Positions 30,159 through 40,611 of a DNA stretch of 64,000 bases are shown here, piece after piece; position 1 is the stretch's first letter; every line of letters starts with the position of its first letter. A program made the position numbers and the translations under genes. The notes under the pieces were generated by a model. It saw only the letters and a list, made by a program, of their open reading frames with translations. It had not been told where the DNA came from and ran no database searches. Source of the stretch: Bacteroidota bacterium (GTDB lineage Bacteria > Bacteroidota > Ignavibacteria > Kapaibacteriales > UBA2268). The stretch covers positions 1 through 64,000 of the forward strand of contig SCSM01000016.1 of assembly GCA_004322215.1 (NCBI GenBank), written 5' to 3'.

Positions 30159-31499
30159 ATGGCAAAAACGGGCTATTCACAGACAAGAAAGAACTCACAC
30201 ACAGGAATTCAACATTACCTCCTATGGGCAATTCTGGCAGTAGCTTTCTATGTATTTTTCTTTTTCAAAGTTATTCCTTGGGGTGTAGCAAACTTCGTTG
30301 TTCCGCTATTTCAACCAAGTGGCGAAAGAATGTTAAAAACCGGTTTCGTGAAATTCGACGGTTTGGTTTGGGCATCTGTTCCAAAAGATAAGGAATATTT
30401 ATATAAAGGAAAAGACATTGAAATTAAAAGAGAATATATAAACAGGGAATTTATATTCGATTTTACCTACAGTCAACGTAATGAAAATGAACATGGTTAT
30501 GTAAAAGGTTCAACTGAGTTCTATGCAAAAACCGAAACCCTCGGTGAAAATCCAATTATATTGGAACCATGGATTGGATTCTGGATTCTCGCCTTGGTAT
30601 TATCACTGCTATGTGCATCTCTGGTGACAATTGTCTTGCCCACCAATATCGGCTTGCTTGCCATTTTATTTGACAGGCAGGTTGATAATACAAGAGCAAA
30701 AATTCGTCTTCAGACAGGTTTCACTGATGATATTGTTGATATTTTAATTATGCCGGACGAACAATTACGCGAAAGGGATTGGGGTGAAATCGAAAGAGCA
30801 TTTAAAACCGTTTGGGACAGGACTTATATTGAAGAAGCATCGGTGGGTAAACACCACACTAAATTTGAAGACCTGTTCAATGAAGCAACAGATATTATTA
30901 TTTATAGAAAAGAAGTAGCTTACGGCAGAATTAAAGAGTATTTCTCAGATTTCGTCGTAAAAGAAATTGAAGATACAAAAGACGGTTTGATTTGGAGAAA
31001 AAATCATTTCCTCATCGGGAAAGGCCTTCGGGTTTATATGGCTCATCACTTTACCGAGAAATATTCAAATAATGTAACAGGTATGGCTTACGGCGGTGCT
31101 GCATTCCTTATCGTTGCAATCGGTATCAGAGGTTTGAAATTTATTCCACCGACTAAACCATCATTCATTCTTCTTGCTATTTTCCTGGAATTTTCAATGC
31201 TTCTACTTCTTGCCGTAACTCTTTTCTACACTGAAGAAGAAGAACGTATGGACAGGATGTTGAAAAAAATGGAGGATGCAAACAGGAGTCAGCTTGAAAC
31301 TTTGAAGGGACAACAGCATGACATTCATCAATTAACTAATGCCCTTGTCGGACAGACTGCTGAAATTATAAAATCAAGAGTTGAAAAAGCAATTTCGGAA
31401 TATATGACAAGCGATTCAAACGTACACAAAGTCGTTGCCGAAGAAATCAGCAAAAAGATTATGATTGGCATCAAAGAATCCTTTGTAGAGAAAAAGTAA
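30159..31499 (+). CDS. Unrecognised four-helix membrane protein with C-terminal coiled coil
   Basis: A 446-residue protein with four likely membrane helices (about 21-44, 138-163, 308-327 and 334-353). A sizeable domain between helices 1 and 2 (about 50-135) is probably extracytoplasmic. A larger soluble domain lies between helices 2 and 3 (about 170-300, with RERDWGEIERAFKTVW and FEDLFNEATDIIIYRKEVAYG). The C-terminal 90 residues form a charged coiled coil (EEEERMDRMLKKMEDANR). The start is preceded by caggagatgag. It stands alone, with a strong terminator behind. I do not recognise a family; the layout would suit a membrane sensor or scaffold, but nothing catalytic is visible. Confidence 0.8.
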   Translation: MAKTGYSQTRKNSHTGIQHYLLWAILAVAFYVFFFFKVIPWGVANFVVPLFQPSGERMLKTGFVKFDGLVWASVPKDKEYLYKGKDIEIKREYINREFIFDFTYSQRNENEHGYVKGSTEFYAKTETLGENPIILEPWIGFWILALVLSLLCASLVTIVLPTNIGLLAILFDRQVDNTRAKIRLQTGFTDDIVDILIMPDEQLRERDWGEIERAFKTVWDRTYIEEASVGKHHTKFEDLFNEATDIIIYRKEVAYGRIKEYFSDFVVKEIEDTKDGLIWRKNHFLIGKGLRVYMAHHFTEKYSNNVTGMAYGGAAFLIVAIGIRGLKFIPPTKPSFILLAIFLEFSMLLLLAVTLFYTEEEERMDRMLKKMEDANRSQLETLKGQQHDIHQLTNALVGQTAEIIKSRVEKAISEYMTSDSNVHKVVAEEISKKIMIGIKESFVEKK

Positions 31500-31637: not shown

Positions 31638-34600
31638 ATGGTCGTTAAAAAATTTTCATATTGGCTTGTTCTATTCTCTGCAATTTTCCTGATTATCACA
31701 AATCTATTGGCTTTTGCAGAAATTATCGAAACCGTCTGCCATCCTGATAAAATTGTTATCACAATCAACAATCTCAGAACTCATTCCGAAAAGGATATCA
31801 CAGGAAAATTAACTTTGAAGATTGACAATTTATTAAATACATATCAATACAAAAGTGATATTAATTCAGATGTTATTCATTTAAATTTAGCTTTAGAAAA
31901 TGAATCATACAGCAGTATAACCTTTGACCAAATTAAATTCTCTACTATTGGAAAAACAAACAAGAATTACATATCTGATTTGAAAATTAAAGCTGAGATT
32001 GTCAATACAGGAATTTTAAGAGGTGTTCCCGTTTCAATATTGAATATCCAGCCATTCGAAATTGATAATAAAAGCAATGATATTAAGGTAATTCAATCTG
32101 CAGAAATAATTATTCATTTGAAAAGAACGATACCCTTATCAAAACCGAATATCAGTGAGTCGGAAAAAGGATTTTTCGCTTCAATTGCTAATAATACTCA
32201 ACTGAATTATTTTCTTGAGCATAGGTATTCGAATAAAAAAAATACTGATAAAATTCTTGCATTGGATAGCTGGTACTCACCGACTCAGACATATTTGAAA
32301 ATTACAACCTCGAAAGACGGAATAGCATACATTATCGGTAGTGATTCTCTTGTCATTACAAGTCCTTTCATTGGCAAGGAAACCAAATTTTTACACCTGG
32401 TGCATAAAGGTGTGGAGCAGCCGATTTATATATTAAATGATAAAAATGGTATATTCGATGAATCCGATACAATTATTTTTGTCGGTTTAAGACCAATCGG
32501 CGATACCACATGGTTCAATGTATTTACGAATGATAATGTCTTTTTCCTTTTTTATGATGAAAGTAAACAAGGAGAAAGAATTGCTTTATTCCCTTCTGCC
32601 GGCTCATCACTTGAACAAATAGAAAATGTCGGGATTGATAACCATATCGAATATGAGAAAATATATTCCCATGGTTATGAAAATAATCAAATCGGAACAG
32701 AGGTTGTCGATGGTGAAGGTTGTTTTTGGGATTTCATTACACCCTGGCCCGATGATAAATTAAAAAATCCTTATGAAAAGGAAACCTTCACATTTTCTAC
32801 ATTATTAAATACTGATTTAAATTCATCCGATTCGATTAAATTTACACTTTACATTAGAAGTAAATCTTTTTTAAAAGACGGCAGTGTTCCTTTTCATAAA
32901 ATAAAAAGTATCATCAATTTTGATACTATGGATACATATCTTGTACCACATGCCAAAGCTGATACAATTGAAATAAAGTATGCCCGGAGCAAATTAAATC
33001 TGGGCATGAATAAAATTATGTTAAGAGCTTTTTTTACAAAAGACCAATTAAACAGATTACAAAAACCTGATGATATATGGCTGGACTATATAATTGTAGA
33101 GGGTACAATCAAACCCTACGCTTTCAAAGGAATTTTGGATTTTGAATTAAATAATTTAAATAAAGATACTGAAGTAAAATCAAAAGGATTCAGTTCTGAT
33201 AAAATTTTTGTCCTTGATACAGTAAAAAAAATAATACAGTTTCCCGAATCAGGAAGGGGCTCTTTCGTTAGAGCTACATCAGTAAACGGCAGAAACCCCA
33301 CAACAAGCTTTATTATGAACGACTCTATCTTATGTGATTCGACAGGGAAAGGTTTACATATTGGCGTTCTTCGCTATCCTGATTATTCACCGGAATATAA
33401 ACTTTATACTGTTTACGACAAAGAGGTTGACAATTATTTACAAAATATTCCTGACAGCAGTATAATATGCTTAGCCAACAACTCAGATGAGCCACTCCCC
33501 TACAGTACGAGAAAAAATATACAAGACTTGGGCAGTAAGGAAATAAATACAAGGGTGAATGGTCAATCATGGATATTTCTTGTGAGAAAGGGAAATTTAA
33601 ATTCAATAACGGAAAAGAGAATTACAAACGGAACAGCTCAACTCGAAAAATATATAGAACATCCGGATGGTAAATCCTATACGGCAAATATTATACTGCC
33701 AAAAGGCTCATCTTATAAATTGTTATGCAGGGATGAAAGTTCAATAGAGCATGCACGTATATACAACGTTACACAATCTTATTTAAGAGACAGCAATAAT
33801 CAATCGGATTTAATTATTATTACGCATAATAAATTCAAAGAAACAGCAGACACACTTGCCCGTTATAGGGAAAGGACACATCATATTAAAGCTACAGTAG
33901 TTGATGTTGATGATATATATAAAGAATTTAATTATGGTATAAAATCCCCCCATGCAATTAAAAAATTTTTGGAATCCGCATATTATAACTGGCAAAAACC
34001 TGCTCCCTCATATTTAACATTAATAGGCGATGCATGCTGGGATTACAGGGGGTTATCAGAAGGTGCAATAAATAAGGATTATGTGCCAAGTTATGGTTGG
34101 CCAGTAAGCGACCATTGGTACACAAAATTAGACGGCAATGATTATCTAAGCGATATCGTAATCGGCAGAATTCCGATAATGGACAACGAGGCAGGATTAA
34201 AGTATATTCAAAAATTAAAAGAATACGATTCTATTCCTTTGAGACCATGGATGAAGAATTTCCTGTTTCTTTCAGGAGGTGTGGATGAATGGGAAAATTT
34301 TGAATTTTGGGACCTGATAACTCTTTGCATAGAAAACATTCAATATCCTGATTTATGCGGTGATACTACAACTGTAAGAAAACGCAACAAAATTACCGGG
34401 GGCGAAGTCGAAGGTCCGGAGATTATTTCGAAAATAAACAGTGGTGCTGTTTGGGTTAGTTTTTTTGGCCATTCTGCACCAACAGTTTTTGATATGGACG
34501 GTTGGCATGCCTACAAACTAAACAATAAACCGAAATATAATTTCTTGACAACATGGGGTTGTAACACCGGCGCATATTCTGAACCGAACCTAACCTGCCG

Positions 34601-37472
34601 AAATGAAGAATACCTGCTTGAACCGGAACGTGCGAGCATAGGAGTAGTTGGTCCTTCAAATGCAGGGATAGTAACGTCTGATAAAAAAATGATGGCTATT
34701 CTAATCAATGGACTTGCTAAAACTTCTCTGAATCTCAGACAAATTGGAGATATAGTAAATTATGGGATATCTGAAATCGGCTATAATGGCGAGGATACTA
34801 CTACTGTAAATCAACTGACCATTCTCGGTGACCCACTGGTAAAATTGAAAATTAAGACACAACCGGATTTATATTTAGTTCCTGAAGAAATCAGGATTAC
34901 TAATAAAAACGATGAAACTGTTATTACGGAATCGGACTCAACAATAGTAATTTCCGGATTTATTTATAATGGCGGTATCGGGCAAGCTGATTCGATTGAA
35001 TTCCGGCTTATCAGGGAATTTGAAAATTACAGCGATACCGTTTTTATTACACTTCCCGGTATTTGCATGAAAGCACCTTTTCATATTGAAATTCCTATTG
35101 CAGGAATGCCTGGAAAACATATAATAACTTTGGAAATTGACCCTTATAAGATGTTGAAAGATGCAGATTTGAATAATAATAACGCAACTCTGGCATTTGA
35201 AGTCTATACCCAGGGACTTGTTCCTCTCGAACCTCTCCCGTTTTGGGATTCGAGGGCTACAGGTCCTGATTTCAGGGTTATTGACCCTGCCTGCAATAAA
35301 GACATCGTTTATAATTTTGAAATTCGTAAAAAAAGGTCTTTATCGGATTCAATTGTTTATAGTTCACAAAAAAATGAAATTACCGATTATGGTACTCACA
35401 TAGAATGGAAACCGATAACACGGCTTGTCCCACCCAACACACCTTATTGGTTGGCCGCCTATAAAAAGAGTATCAGCGGTTCCACTGAGAGCAATATTTT
35501 ATGGCTTCCGTTTACTACAAACCCATCATTTGACAACGGAGTTGTAAAATATACAATCAATGGCAAAGACCAATTACAGTTATTACAACTGGATAGTCTT
35601 AGGGTTATATCTGAAAAAGATTCTTCACATATCGGGTTTGATATAAACAAAATACCCTATAAATTGATAAGTGTTCATGGTATCCAGGGTATTCTGGATA
35701 GGGATGTTGAGATACAATTAAATGGTAAAATCTATATTAATTCAGACGAAGCCGGGCAGGCACCAATCGGCTTTAACATCGTTGTCGCTTCAGGTGTTGA
35801 CGGCAGCTACAAAATGAAACGTAATTTTGATACCTGGGGAAACGGAAAACCTTATGAGGGCGTTAATTTCGTCAAATTCTTAAAAGATTCTGTAGAACGC
35901 GGCGATTATATTTTAATTGCTACTTGCGGTGCGTCTTTCAGACTATTCGTTGACAGTATGAATCACAACCCCACAAGCATCGGCTCACTTGATTCATTAA
36001 GATACTATCTCAGGCAGTATGGTTCAAAACTTGCTGATTCAATAACATCAAAAACTACTTATGACCCGAATTCCTTCGTCATGGTCGGTAGGTGGGGGTC
36101 TCCTGTCGGGTCAATCCCTGAATTGCTCGATACTACAGGTAAAATTGCTGAGATGATCGACACTATCGAAATAAAATATCGTTCCGGACATTTTATTACA
36201 CCTATTATCGGACCTGCAAAACAATGGATAAATTTAAAAATTAACGCTAATTTAAATCCTGTTGTTACAAAAAATTCTATTATTGTTTATGGTTTGCCCT
36301 ATGAGAAAAATGATTATATTAAATTAATTGAAAATGATACATCAACTTATGTTGATTTATCGGGCATATCGGCAGCAGACTACCCATATTTAAAAATTGA
36401 GGATTACCTTGCAAGTAACAATGACTCATTATTGAGTCATATTAATTCATTTTCTATTTATTTCATTCCTTTAGCTGAATTATCTTTTGTAAAAGATAAT
36501 TGCACAAACATAACAGATTCGGTAATGAGAGCCGATTCCATTACAGAAACCTTTACGGTTCGTAACATATCATACAGAACAGTCTCCGAATTGTCTCCTA
36601 TGGAATTGAGTTTATATTCTTCAGGTATACCTCCGATAATCAGTACAAAAGATGTAGACAAATTGGATATTGACAAAGAAGAACAAAAGCCCTTTATAAT
36701 AGAAACCGAATCCCTCGAATCAAATACTAATGTTCTCGCTTCATTATCATTAGACAAAAACCAAAAAGATATTTATACATTTAATAACAGCGAAAGAAGA
36801 TTTCTGCATATTAATGAAGATACCACAATGCCGTATATTAAAGTTAAAATTGACAGTGTGGTTGTTTTCGACAGCATTTTAGTAAAAGATGGTGAGTACG
36901 TTTCGATACAGCCGAAAATTGAAATTTCTTTATATGATAATTCATACAAGCCAGTACCTGATGATGCAATAAAAGTTAGAATTAATGCAATCTTCAAAAA
37001 ATTTACACATGATAACGATACGCTGGTAAATTTTGGAAAAAACAGACCTCTGAAGGAATATTTGAGTTTTATCAGCGATTCTTTGGACATCGGAGAAAAT
37101 ATCATTACAATTATTTATTCAGACGGAACAGGTAATAAAGACACAAGCAGGATTACTGTATTTGTTTCATTGAACGGATTTGTCGAGGATGTGAAAAATG
37201 TTCCGAATCCACTGAATAACCACACAACATTCAGTTTTTATTTTAAAGCACCCCACCAGGGAATGACTGCCAATATATTAGTATATAATGTATCCGGGCA
37301 AAAAGTACGTACATTGAAAAAAGAAATAAAAATCGGTGAAAATAAAATTGATATGGAAGCAATTGATGATTATGGAACATTACTTCCAATTGGAATGTAC
37401 TTCTATCGCATAAACATCGAATCGGATTTCTACGTTGACCCGTATTTCGGGAAATTCGTAATAATGAGATAA
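31638..37472 (+). CDS. Giant secreted C25 (gingipain-type) protein with ILEI-like domain and T9SS sorting domain
   Basis: A protein of about 1944 residues. The start is ATG 31638; an upstream in-frame TTG is unsupported. The signal peptide is residues 1-27. After a beta-rich prodomain, residues about 720-1080 are a C25 cysteine-peptidase domain with catalytic-pair candidates H945 (FFGHS) and C975 (WGCNTG). A CARDB-like Ig region follows (about 1085-1190). Residues about 1376-1490 resemble an ILEI/FAM3-type carbohydrate-binding domain (GFNIVVASG, NFDTW, GDYILIATCG, VMVGRWGS). The last about 90 residues (from NVPNPLNNHTTFSF to KFVIMR) form a T9SS/FlgD-like C-terminal sorting domain. It is probably a surface or secreted peptidase. 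It is much longer than the T9SS sortase PorU, so that label is not used. Confidence 0.88.
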   Translation: MVVKKFSYWLVLFSAIFLIITNLLAFAEIIETVCHPDKIVITINNLRTHSEKDITGKLTLKIDNLLNTYQYKSDINSDVIHLNLALENESYSSITFDQIKFSTIGKTNKNYISDLKIKAEIVNTGILRGVPVSILNIQPFEIDNKSNDIKVIQSAEIIIHLKRTIPLSKPNISESEKGFFASIANNTQLNYFLEHRYSNKKNTDKILALDSWYSPTQTYLKITTSKDGIAYIIGSDSLVITSPFIGKETKFLHLVHKGVEQPIYILNDKNGIFDESDTIIFVGLRPIGDTTWFNVFTNDNVFFLFYDESKQGERIALFPSAGSSLEQIENVGIDNHIEYEKIYSHGYENNQIGTEVVDGEGCFWDFITPWPDDKLKNPYEKETFTFSTLLNTDLNSSDSIKFTLYIRSKSFLKDGSVPFHKIKSIINFDTMDTYLVPHAKADTIEIKYARSKLNLGMNKIMLRAFFTKDQLNRLQKPDDIWLDYIIVEGTIKPYAFKGILDFELNNLNKDTEVKSKGFSSDKIFVLDTVKKIIQFPESGRGSFVRATSVNGRNPTTSFIMNDSILCDSTGKGLHIGVLRYPDYSPEYKLYTVYDKEVDNYLQNIPDSSIICLANNSDEPLPYSTRKNIQDLGSKEINTRVNGQSWIFLVRKGNLNSITEKRITNGTAQLEKYIEHPDGKSYTANIILPKGSSYKLLCRDESSIEHARIYNVTQSYLRDSNNQSDLIIITHNKFKETADTLARYRERTHHIKATVVDVDDIYKEFNYGIKSPHAIKKFLESAYYNWQKPAPSYLTLIGDACWDYRGLSEGAINKDYVPSYGWPVSDHWYTKLDGNDYLSDIVIGRIPIMDNEAGLKYIQKLKEYDSIPLRPWMKNFLFLSGGVDEWENFEFWDLITLCIENIQYPDLCGDTTTVRKRNKITGGEVEGPEIISKINSGAVWVSFFGHSAPTVFDMDGWHAYKLNNKPKYNFLTTWGCNTGAYSEPNLTCRNEEYLLEPERASIGVVGPSNAGIVTSDKKMMAILINGLAKTSLNLRQIGDIVNYGISEIGYNGEDTTTVNQLTILGDPLVKLKIKTQPDLYLVPEEIRITNKNDETVITESDSTIVISGFIYNGGIGQADSIEFRLIREFENYSDTVFITLPGICMKAPFHIEIPIAGMPGKHIITLEIDPYKMLKDADLNNNNATLAFEVYTQGLVPLEPLPFWDSRATGPDFRVIDPACNKDIVYNFEIRKKRSLSDSIVYSSQKNEITDYGTHIEWKPITRLVPPNTPYWLAAYKKSISGSTESNILWLPFTTNPSFDNGVVKYTINGKDQLQLLQLDSLRVISEKDSSHIGFDINKIPYKLISVHGIQGILDRDVEIQLNGKIYINSDEAGQAPIGFNIVVASGVDGSYKMKRNFDTWGNGKPYEGVNFVKFLKDSVERGDYILIATCGASFRLFVDSMNHNPTSIGSLDSLRYYLRQYGSKLADSITSKTTYDPNSFVMVGRWGSPVGSIPELLDTTGKIAEMIDTIEIKYRSGHFITPIIGPAKQWINLKINANLNPVVTKNSIIVYGLPYEKNDYIKLIENDTSTYVDLSGISAADYPYLKIEDYLASNNDSLLSHINSFSIYFIPLAELSFVKDNCTNITDSVMRADSITETFTVRNISYRTVSELSPMELSLYSSGIPPIISTKDVDKLDIDKEEQKPFIIETESLESNTNVLASLSLDKNQKDIYTFNNSERRFLHINEDTTMPYIKVKIDSVVVFDSILVKDGEYVSIQPKIEISLYDNSYKPVPDDAIKVRINAIFKKFTHDNDTLVNFGKNRPLKEYLSFISDSLDIGENIITIIYSDGTGNKDTSRITVFVSLNGFVEDVKNVPNPLNNHTTFSFYFKAPHQGMTANILVYNVSGQKVRTLKKEIKIGENKIDMEAIDDYGTLLPIGMYFYRINIESDFYVDPYFGKFVIMR

Positions 37473-37672: not shown

Positions 37673-38914
37673 ATGAAATTTAAAATTACCTGTTTAATTG
37701 CACTATTTTTGTTAGCAGCAATTTCAACTTCATTCGGAAACGGTTTAAGTTTAAACAGTATTGGACCCAAATCCCTCGGTATGGGAGGAGCATTTATCGG
37801 TTTAGCAGATGATTATACTGCAGTTTACTGGAATCCCGCAGGAATAACAAACCTTGACAAAATCCAGATAGCCGCTTTTGTTACAGACGTTATTCCTACT
37901 TCAACTTACAAATCTGAACAGTATGGAATTGATGCAAAATCAAAATCCAATCATTATATCAGCCCTAATATCGCAGGTTATATACCTTTGATGAAAGGTG
38001 ACCTCGTTGTTGGATTAGGTGCTTATGTCCCTGCAGGACTTGGAACAGAATGGAATGGTGACGAGTTGAAAAATCTTACCGGTCAAGTAGCTTATGATTG
38101 GGAAACAAAAATAGGTGTATTCGATTTATCTCCCGTTATTGCATATAAAATTAATAATATGTTTTCAGTAGGTGCTTCGTTAGATATACATTTTGGTATG
38201 TTTGATTTGAAACAATTTGGCCCTTTGCAATATACCGAATCAAGTACCGGTATAGGATTAGGAGCAAGTGCCGGTATTTTAATAAAACCTGATAAACTTT
38301 TAAATATTGGACTTTCATTTAAAACCGAAAACAATATTAAATTTAAAGGTACAGCTGAGAATCCTGCTATGCAGGCAGCCGGTGCACCTAAATCTGATTT
38401 TACTAGAGATGTTGCCTGGCCAATGTGGTTTGGTGGTGGAATAGCATTGTTCCCGATAGAAAATTTGACTATTACTTTTGACGTCCAGTTCAGTATGTGG
38501 AGTAATACAGAAGATTCATTAATTACTGTGTATGATTCTCCTGCATGGAAACAAAGGGTTGGTGATCCTAAAGTCATGTATTTATATTGGGTAGATGCGA
38601 TGCAAATAAGATTCGGTGCTCAATATGAGTTCAGTAAAGAATTTGCACTTAGATTAGGATATTATAATGACCCTGCTCCTGCGCCTGATAGTACATTAAG
38701 TATACTATTTCCAAGCATATCATATAATGCCTTTACAATAGGTGCCAGTTATAAATTAATGAAGTTTCTGAATTTGGATTTTGGTTTAGAATATTTGTTA
38801 GGTAAGGAAAGAAATGTTACCCAAGATACACATCAGGTTCCACGTAACAATGGTGGTTTGCATAACACTAACATTTTGGCTATCAGTCTTGGTTTGTGTT
38901 ACACATTAGATTAA
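37673..38914 (+). CDS. OMPP1/FadL/TodX-family outer-membrane transport protein
   Basis: A 413-residue beta-barrel of the FadL family, which takes up hydrophobic compounds such as fatty acids. The signal peptide is residues 1-22 (cleavage after SFG). The mature start NGLSLNSIGPKSLGMGGAFI then DDYTAVYWNPAGIT is the N-terminal plug signature. Alternating beta strands follow, and the chain ends in a YTLD strand. It has a perfect aaaggagg ribosome binding site and a strong terminator behind, suggesting a well-expressed single gene. Substrate is unknown. PorV of T9SS is a distant relative, but the sequence reads as a general FadL-type protein. Confidence 0.88.
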   Translation: MKFKITCLIALFLLAAISTSFGNGLSLNSIGPKSLGMGGAFIGLADDYTAVYWNPAGITNLDKIQIAAFVTDVIPTSTYKSEQYGIDAKSKSNHYISPNIAGYIPLMKGDLVVGLGAYVPAGLGTEWNGDELKNLTGQVAYDWETKIGVFDLSPVIAYKINNMFSVGASLDIHFGMFDLKQFGPLQYTESSTGIGLGASAGILIKPDKLLNIGLSFKTENNIKFKGTAENPAMQAAGAPKSDFTRDVAWPMWFGGGIALFPIENLTITFDVQFSMWSNTEDSLITVYDSPAWKQRVGDPKVMYLYWVDAMQIRFGAQYEFSKEFALRLGYYNDPAPAPDSTLSILFPSISYNAFTIGASYKLMKFLNLDFGLEYLLGKERNVTQDTHQVPRNNGGLHNTNILAISLGLCYTLD

Positions 38915-39213: not shown

Positions 39214-40611
39214 ATGGCAGATAAACAAAGAACTATAAAAAAACCGGTATCATTATCGGGAGTTGGCTTACATACGGGACAGGAATCAACAATTACTTTC
39301 CATCCTGCACCCTCAGATTATGGATTTAGATTTATAAGGACAGACCTCGCCGAACCGGTAGAAATTCCCGCATTAGTTGACCATGTTGTTGATTTATCGA
39401 GGGGAACAACGCTCGGAATTAACGGATTCCAGGTTCACACTGTCGAACATGTTCTTGCGGCTTTGACCGGCTTGAAAATTGATAATTGTAAAATAGAATT
39501 GTCTGGCTTAGAACCTCCGGTTGGTGACGGCAGTTCCATGCCTTATGTGGATGTTCTGCTTAAAGCGGAATTCGATGAGCAGACTGAAGACCGTAAATAT
39601 TTTGTCATAGATGAAACAATTCACTATACGAATGAAGAAAAACAAGTTGACATAGTTGCACTTCCTACAGATGATTACAGGGTTACTGTTATGATTGACT
39701 ATCACAATCCTGCCCTTGGAAGTCAACATTCCGGCTTGTTCAATATGGACAAGGAATTTGTCTCTGAGTTTGCACCTGCTCGTACATTCTGTTTTCTCGC
39801 AGAAATACAGATGTTAATCGAACAGGGATTGATAAAGGGCGGCAATCTCGATAATGCAATTGTAATTGTTGACAAAGAAATGACAAAAGTTGAACTGGAT
39901 AAGATGAGGGATTTGTTCAGCTTGAAAAAAGCACCTCATATAGGAACAACAGGCATACTAAACGATATTGAATTAAGATACAAAAATGAACCTGCGAGGC
40001 ATAAGGTTCTCGATATGCTTGGTGATTTGACGCTCGTAGGCGTTCCGTTAAAAGCTCAAATCCTGGCTGCAAGACCTGGGCATGCAAGTAATATTGAATT
40101 CGCAAAAAAAATCAGGAAAGAATATCTGAAAAAAATGGCATTAAAAAAGCACAAGATTAGTGTTTCTAATGATGTTGCTTTCGATATTTATGATTTATTA
40201 AAAATCATGCCGCACAGGTATCCGTTCCTTATGATAGACAAGCTGGTTGAATATGATGCTGAACATAACAGTGTTGTTGGTATAAAAAACGTAACTGTCA
40301 ATGAACCTTACTTTATGGGTCATTTTCCTGAGAAACCGATTATGCCGGGGGTCTTGATTTGTGAAGCCATGGCACAGACCGGTTGTTTGCTTTTACTAAA
40401 AGTGATGAACGATTTTAAAAATCAGCTCGTTCTTTTCATGGGTATAAAGGAAGCCAAATTTCGCAAGCCGGTTATACCCGGTGACCAGCTTGTTATGAAA
40501 GTAAAAATGACAGGAAAAAAATTCAATACCTATACTTTAAAAGGTACGGCTTATGTCAATGGGCAAATCGTTGCCGAAGCAGAATTATCAACAGCAGTTG
40601 TAAACAAATAG
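39214..40611 (+). CDS. lpxC/fabZ: Bifunctional LpxC deacetylase / FabZ 3-hydroxyacyl-ACP dehydratase
   Basis: A 465-residue fusion. Residues 1-300 are UDP-3-O-acyl-GlcNAc deacetylase, the committed step of lipid A synthesis. The zinc ligands are H79 (HTVEH), H263 and D267 (RHKVLDMLGD), and the general acid is H290. Residues about 315-465 are FabZ, with H334 (MPHRYPFLMID), GHFPEKPIMPG (H370) and E384. This fusion is widespread in Bacteroidota and Chlorobiota and couples a 3-hydroxyacyl-ACP user with its competing dehydratase. It lies 111 bp upstream of lpxA in the same direction. Confidence 0.97.
   Translation: MADKQRTIKKPVSLSGVGLHTGQESTITFHPAPSDYGFRFIRTDLAEPVEIPALVDHVVDLSRGTTLGINGFQVHTVEHVLAALTGLKIDNCKIELSGLEPPVGDGSSMPYVDVLLKAEFDEQTEDRKYFVIDETIHYTNEEKQVDIVALPTDDYRVTVMIDYHNPALGSQHSGLFNMDKEFVSEFAPARTFCFLAEIQMLIEQGLIKGGNLDNAIVIVDKEMTKVELDKMRDLFSLKKAPHIGTTGILNDIELRYKNEPARHKVLDMLGDLTLVGVPLKAQILAARPGHASNIEFAKKIRKEYLKKMALKKHKISVSNDVAFDIYDLLKIMPHRYPFLMIDKLVEYDAEHNSVVGIKNVTVNEPYFMGHFPEKPIMPGVLICEAMAQTGCLLLLKVMNDFKNQLVLFMGIKEAKFRKPVIPGDQLVMKVKMTGKKFNTYTLKGTAYVNGQIVAEAELSTAVVNK

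Follow-up and report, generated by a model that had tools for sequence, protein, structure and literature searches.

The open reading frame at 31638-37472 of the 64-kb stretch of DNA analyzed here (hereafter, the window) encodes a peptidase C25 protein that carries two ILEI domains, one before and one after the catalytic domain. Judged by sequence, it belongs to a family that spans Ignavibacteria/Kapabacteria, other Bacteroidota, KSB1, and Calditrichota, and that is related to PorU2 and separate from canonical PorU. We infer from this relatedness that the window protein most likely serves in PorU2-type processing. Specifically, we assign a probability of roughly 0.45, i.e., a little under even, to its being a processing enzyme or sortase of the PorU2 type that is exported by the type IX secretion system (T9SS) and whose ILEI domains have diverged. 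For the family, a link to glycans is supported by neighboring glycosyltransferase (GT) genes and by sugar-contact residues that are kept in part of the members. Sugar recognition by the window protein itself is not supported by its residues at these positions.

Domain anatomy of the window protein

The domain anatomy of the window protein is established (Table 1). Counted from the ATG, the protein has 1944 residues (an upstream TTG start would give 1951), arranged as a hydrophobic leader, a PorU-like N-terminal region, an ILEI domain, the C25 domain, beta-sandwiches, a second ILEI domain, and a marginal T9SS tail. The window protein's own best model stretch covers residues 683-1181; its N-terminal region is probably PorU-like, as the same region of two relatives (L062 and L072) matches the PorU and PorU2 models from near the model N-terminus. 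The T9SS tail announced by a first-pass annotation of this DNA is borderline, lying just above the TIGR04183 cut-off and just below that of Pfam Por_Secre_tail.

Table 1. Features of the C25-ILEI gene and its upstream neighbor, in window coordinates
Feature	Position	Strand	Residues and basis
Upstream neighbor, 446-aa polytopic membrane protein	30159..31499	+	in 20/28 Kapabacteria loci
Signal peptide (putative)	31638..31718	+	~1-27; hydrophobic N-terminus, translation judged by eye
PorU-like N-terminal region (probable)	32265..33197	+	~210-520; aligned with relatives
N-terminal ILEI (FAM3/POMGnT1-stem fold) domain	33249..33668	+	538-677; PF15711 35.7 bits (cut-off 27)
Peptidase C25 catalytic domain	33813..34847	+	726-1070; PF01364 213 bits (cut-off 23), E 8e-63
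Catalytic His945	34470..34472	+	H in 104/104 ILEI-bearing C25 domains
Catalytic Cys975	34560..34562	+	C in 104/104 ILEI-bearing C25 domains
Beta-sandwich domain (CARDB/Ig-like) after C25	34890..35213	+	1085-1192; predicted model, VIA Z 9.6 to CARDB domain 3idu
C-terminal ILEI domain (that of the first-pass annotation)	35640..36179	+	1335-1514; PF15711 36.2 bits (cut-off 27)
T9SS C-terminal sorting domain (marginal)	37203..37469	+	1856-1944; TIGR04183 24.0 bits (cut-off 23), Pfam Por_Secre_tail 22.3 (cut-off 27)

The gingipain-type C25 domain and its H945/C975 pair, both proposed earlier, were borne out. His945 and Cys975 are invariant in a 25-sequence alignment, and the catalytic columns hold H and C throughout the 104 C25 domains of ILEI-bearing proteins (the window's counted, duplicates and short C25 stretches removed beforehand); thus, no loss of the pair was seen in close homologs. 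Across these 104 proteins, seven other C25 positions vary little or not at all. The two catalytic columns hold H and C in the genome's own PorU (L052) as well, and PorU 6za2, weakly aligned, also matches the pair. Another C25 protein of this genome, short and with a good T9SS tail (L053, 4692-6116, contig C5), has Thr in the catalytic Cys column and is possibly inactive.

PF15711 recognizes the window protein twice, once on each side of the C25 domain. The ILEI-like stretch previously placed at about residues 1376-1490 agrees with the second match and with an envelope of about 1378-1488 from an iterated lineage profile; the ILEI domain just before C25 (about 538-677) had been overlooked. Since the lineage profile was iterated on these same sequences, the membership cut-offs quoted are those of Pfam. 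An ILEI search of the window's own 4.2-Mb genome gave two matches, both within the window protein, and the same search gave no match in any of 14 control genomes, which puts the C-terminal match above chance.

AlphaFold2 modeling of two segments, residues 525-1110 and 1085-1620 (34 sequences each; mean pLDDT 89.0 and 87.9, respectively), predicts the ILEI fold for both domains. By VIA, the predicted N-terminal domain matches the POMGnT1 stem 5ggj with Z 18.0 (rmsd 2.0, 134 aligned) and FAM3C 5lc2 with Z 17.4, and the predicted C-terminal domain matches FAM3C 5lc2 with Z 19.7 (rmsd 2.1, 152 aligned) and POMGnT1 5ggf with Z 19.6. Foldseek returned the same families for these models. Furthermore, a profile of 22 bacterial ILEI domains (the window counted) searched against PDB sequences found FAM3C (2.6e-25), POMGnT1 (1.8e-24), and TMEM2 (1.5e-20). 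ILEI similarity is therefore strong both by profile and by predicted fold. Elsewhere, the FAM3-fold domain is known from sugar-binding and hormone-like proteins of humans.

Relation to PorU2, PorU, and the gingipains

The best whole-protein model for the window protein is NF052324 (putative PorU2; 298 bits against a cut-off of 450), followed by NF033707 (PorU; 202 against 420). One Bacteroidota protein with both C25 and ILEI (L182) exceeds the PorU2 cut-off with 464.5 bits, the sole pass among five relatives scanned, and the NF052324 cut-off was reached in none of the 149 genomes of the class. In the literature searched, we found no mention of the PorU2 name.

The genome has a canonical PorU of its own (L052; 1353 aa, about 836 bits), adjoined by a PorV-family gene, together with a PorZ (348 bits) and at least 150 T9SS tail matches. 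Across the class, canonical PorU is over cut-off in 139/149 genomes and PorZ in 127/149. The presence of separate PorU and PorZ genes makes the window protein an additional PorU-like protein, far longer than PorU as the first-pass annotation had said; the lineage ILEI profile found no domain in the PorU of this genome. Three assignments were tried and set aside. The window protein as the genome's PorU was ruled out, as L052 fills that role (about 835 bits). As a stand-in for a missing PorZ it was rejected in view of the PorZ counts just given. The FadL-family gene downstream (37673-38914) was rejected as a PorV partner, scoring 52.7 against 90 for PorV_fam and 30.6 against 325 for PorV2; it is present in 3 of the 28 Kapabacteria loci, those of the closest relatives.

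A FastTree phylogeny of 117 C25 domains grouped all the ILEI-bearing ones (support 0.60) and placed the window inside a Kapabacteria clade (0.82). ILEI matches occur in 87/149 genomes of the class and in 77/296 of a phylum sample. At E 0.001, 62 of the 149 class genomes gave no ILEI match, including 6/22 of the window's order; some of the 62 do show PorU2-model matches of similar length. The domain follows C25 in 62/62 ILEI-bearing C25 proteins of the first fetched set (loci picked by ILEI match), with 257-386 residues between the C25 end and the ILEI start (median 295; 115 proteins, duplicates counted). Loci L037-L096 and L178-L197 were taken for an ILEI match (L052-L054 for a C25 match), so the share of ILEI among them is conditional on this choice. 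A further 80 loci were found through C25-region stretches; 32 of them hold 33 proteins with both domains, and the C25 reading frames in many of the remaining ones (Poribacteria, Omnitrophota, Chloroflexota, and others) showed no ILEI domain. An N-terminal ILEI domain (E < 0.001) is present in 24 proteins, duplicates counted, many of them from Kapabacteria, others from KSB1 and Calditrichota, and a few from elsewhere. For the row counts below, nine duplicate loci were removed, and Kapabacteria rows were assigned from sequence kinship and tree clade.

The family shows some variation in layout. One 2398-aa C25 protein (L056, 169-7365) has two C-terminal ILEI domains, and a 585-aa reading frame (L179, 6845-8599) carries an ILEI domain but gave no match to C25. 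Five loci (L082, L089, L090, L092, and L188) hold two C25-ILEI genes each, directly in tandem except in L090, and in some of them the paired genes differ at the sugar-contact positions.

The predicted C25 part lies closer in VIA-align to the gingipains (Z 41.6 to RgpB 4ief and 38.1 to Kgp) than to PorU 6za2 (21.2); this gap is not decisive because PorU was solved in its latent state. It does speak for a gingipain-like secreted surface protease that degrades an external protein or glycoprotein with the ILEI domains as substrate-binding modules, a reading in line with the first-pass annotation, and the intact catalytic pair and the marginal T9SS tail would suit such an enzyme as well. We nevertheless regard this reading as unlikely, since PorU2 and PorU rank first among whole-protein models and the similarity of L062 and L072 to PorU begins near the N-terminus of the PorU model. 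Furthermore, the conserved place of the gene near the 446-aa membrane protein in Kapabacteria and the GT neighbors elsewhere would suit an envelope-building enzyme better.

Gene neighborhoods and the sugar-contact site

Outside Kapabacteria, the C25-ILEI genes frequently lie beside GT genes. Among 115 immediate neighbors, Pfam found 18 Glycos_transf_1, 13 WecG, 7 Glycos_transf_2, and 5 Wzy_C domains. Among 118 control genes (of 120, the two longest omitted), there were 2 Glycos_transf_2, and Glycos_transf_1 and WecG fell outside the 25 families listed, i.e., at most one each; the control regions lay mostly 65 to 95 kb away on the same contigs, with one genome (G016) outside the test loci. With GT profiles built here, an adjacent GT was found in 34/58 loci. 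Co-directional upstream genes within 100 bases were GTs in 20 of 34 cases, eight of the 20 overlapping. In 18 of 23 kinship families, at least one member had a GT near it. Of the 70 non-Kapabacteria rows whose flank reached 4 kb or more, 48 had a GT inside about 6 kb; of 40 control regions, 6 did. We also hand-picked 20 genomes and, in each, a single C25-ILEI locus: a GT was within about 6 kb of 18 of these loci against 3 of the 20 PorU loci from the same genomes (p 3e-6). L077 and L089, additional C25-ILEI loci in two of the genomes, have no GT near.

Some other neighbors are Wzi capsule-assembly or heparinase-like proteins. T9SS tails next to the gene were not clearly enriched (9/115 neighbors against 5/118 controls). 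Twelve bases upstream of one Bacteroidota C25-ILEI gene, a reading frame (L191, 2501-3688) looks PorV/FadL-family-like by eye.

The Kapabacteria loci have a different setting. No GT profile match was found anywhere in the 64-kb window, nor within 6 kb in any of the 28 Kapabacteria loci (27 of them flanked by 4 kb or more); these profiles were built from the studied loci and are silent in every Kapabacteria locus, so their reach in Kapabacteria is unproven. An independent Pfam scan of 52 immediate neighbors from 27 of the 28 loci returned no GT among the 25 families listed of 37. Housekeeping genes are common among these neighbors, with gyrase A in 9/52 and frequent tRNA synthetases, and an L-lysine 6-aminotransferase gene is nearby in 18/28 loci. 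The 446-aa membrane protein gave no Pfam family at E 0.001 and no Pfam or NCBIfam family above cut-off. Farther downstream, the translation of 39214-40611 resembles a fused LpxC-FabZ protein, with an LpxA-like gene after it.

In POMGnT1, GlcNAc is held via R129, D179, and R207, residues that are conserved in FAM3 proteins and in the Fam3L2 domain of FAMP-1 (PMC9802357). Sugar was bound by FAM3C, FAM3A, and Fam3L2 of Caenorhabditis elegans FAMP-1, and the Fam3L1 domain, which lacks equivalents of D179 and R207, bound none in the assay described there (PMC9802357). The window protein has I/G/K at these positions in its C-terminal ILEI domain and K/S/G in the N-terminal one, and the residue at the R207 position hinges on gap placement (Lys or Pro). 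Outside Kapabacteria, the complete R/D/R triad is kept in the C-terminal ILEI domain of 29/76 rows and Asp plus Arg in 40/76; many of the 36 rows that lack Asp plus Arg nonetheless have GT neighbors. In Kapabacteria, Asp plus Arg is kept in none of 28 rows, and Arg129 plus Asp179 in four. Retention of the site and presence of GT neighbors were associated over 97 rows (Fisher p 5e-5; rows with less than 4 kb of flank removed, either ILEI domain counted), and p rose to 0.20 without Kapabacteria. We therefore discarded a general correlation as strong evidence: the joint loss rests on one clade and may be one event rather than a rule.

These results divide the earlier proposal of a surface protease targeted to glycans. 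For the family, GT neighbors and contact residues support the glycan part, while the window protein lacks both the contact residues and a GT nearby; as for the protease part, the relation to PorU speaks no less for a processing enzyme or sortase than for a free protease. The accompanying statement that bacterial ILEI domains are associated with carbohydrate recognition found no backing in the literature searched, where no tie of bacterial ILEI domains to carbohydrates was seen and the binding evidence concerns POMGnT1, FAM3C, FAM3A, and FAMP-1 (PMC9802357). Nor did we find there anything joining ILEI with peptidase C25, or anything on PF15711.

The absence of the sugar site from both window ILEI domains would fit a surface-assembly or adhesion protein whose ILEI domains are protein-binding or structural and whose C25 domain serves self-processing only. 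The protein is also less conserved than most of its neighbors: over the three nearest relatives, identity is 63-68% for the C25 protein, 66-79% for the FadL gene, and 82-93% for the other named neighbors. Low conservation is frequent in surface proteins. We consider this account quite unlikely, given that H, C, and the seven further C25 positions are conserved beyond what self-processing would lead one to expect, and that Asp plus Arg is kept in more than half of the rows outside Kapabacteria. Improbable, finally, is a glycan-coupled sortase like that proposed for the relatives in which the window ILEI domains would still bind sugar via a shifted site: both predicted folds are well kept, a Lys (alignment dependent) lies near the R207 position of the C-terminal domain, and four Kapabacteria rows keep R129 and D179, but in the published assay Fam3L1, which has no D179/R207 equivalents, showed no sugar binding (PMC9802357), and no GT is near in the 28 Kapabacteria rows.

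Proposed role and comparison with known systems

As a PorU2-type enzyme, the window protein would be exported by the type IX system, remain on the external side of the outer membrane, and act there as a second PorU-like enzyme beside canonical PorU. Using Cys975, it would cleave some of the surface proteins and transfer the acyl group to an acceptor or to water. Where a lineage has the gene beside GTs, the acceptor would probably be the glycan that those GTs make, with the ILEI domain holding it, in some members by way of the Arg/Asp/Arg site. The window's lineage keeps the ILEI folds without the known sugar site; a different ligand is therefore more likely there, e.g., another glycan via another site, or a protein partner. 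The case for a glycan acceptor is good for the family and weak for the window protein.

A broader idea, which we hold to be possible and on balance doubtful, is that a second sortase system of the PorU2 type operates beside canonical PorU across Bacteroidota, KSB1, and Calditrichota. In such a system, a C25 enzyme from exopolysaccharide operons, with its own FAM3-fold glycan-reading domain, would join chosen surface proteins to the exopolysaccharide of the strain, an outer-surface counterpart of exosortase, and the window protein would represent a branch in which the domain was doubled and re-purposed.

Beyond Porphyromonas and its near relatives, which glycan the T9SS sortases use is, to our knowledge, still mostly an open question. 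A PorU-like enzyme whose gene adjoins GTs, with a built-in domain whose fold binds sugar in animals and whose contact residues are kept in part of the bacterial members, makes this question testable. The relatives that lie beside GT genes hint at a way in which such bacteria may fix proteins to their glycan coat. Furthermore, the family places the FAM3/ILEI fold in a broad bacterial context that is relevant to the ligands of FAM3 proteins.

The ILEI fold is common to the window protein, the POMGnT1 stem, FAM3A-C (ILEI, PANDER), and TMEM2. In contrast to those proteins, the window ILEI domains are joined to a cysteine peptidase, and the sugar-contact triad is lost there and kept in part of the relatives. 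With the gingipains RgpB and Kgp, the window protein shares the predicted C25 catalytic fold, and it differs from them in its flanking ILEI domains and probable PorU-like N-terminal region.

In Porphyromonas gingivalis, PorU acts as a transpeptidase that removes the sorting tail and links A-LPS to the C-terminus so formed, and PorZ binds both A-LPS and PorU and delivers A-LPS (PMC11285876, PMC8545088, PMC7468200). The window protein shares with this sortase (6za2; NF033707) the C25 domain, the His/Cys columns, and, as seen in relatives, the PorU-like N-terminal region, whereas it scores under the PorU cut-off, is 1944 rather than 1353 aa long, and occurs in a genome with a separate PorU. Its best whole-protein match is PorU2 (NF052324, "putative type IX secretion system sortase PorU2"), a function putative by name, for which an ILEI-bearing relative (L182) qualifies; the window protein itself differs by its sub-cut-off score and its extra N-terminal ILEI domain. 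As an analogy only, the exosortase/EpsH-PEP-CTERM system likewise has a C-terminal protein-sorting enzyme encoded with exopolysaccharide genes (PMC7468200). Exosortases are inner-membrane enzymes, whereas the window protein is a predicted secreted C25 protein, and no homology between the two is claimed.
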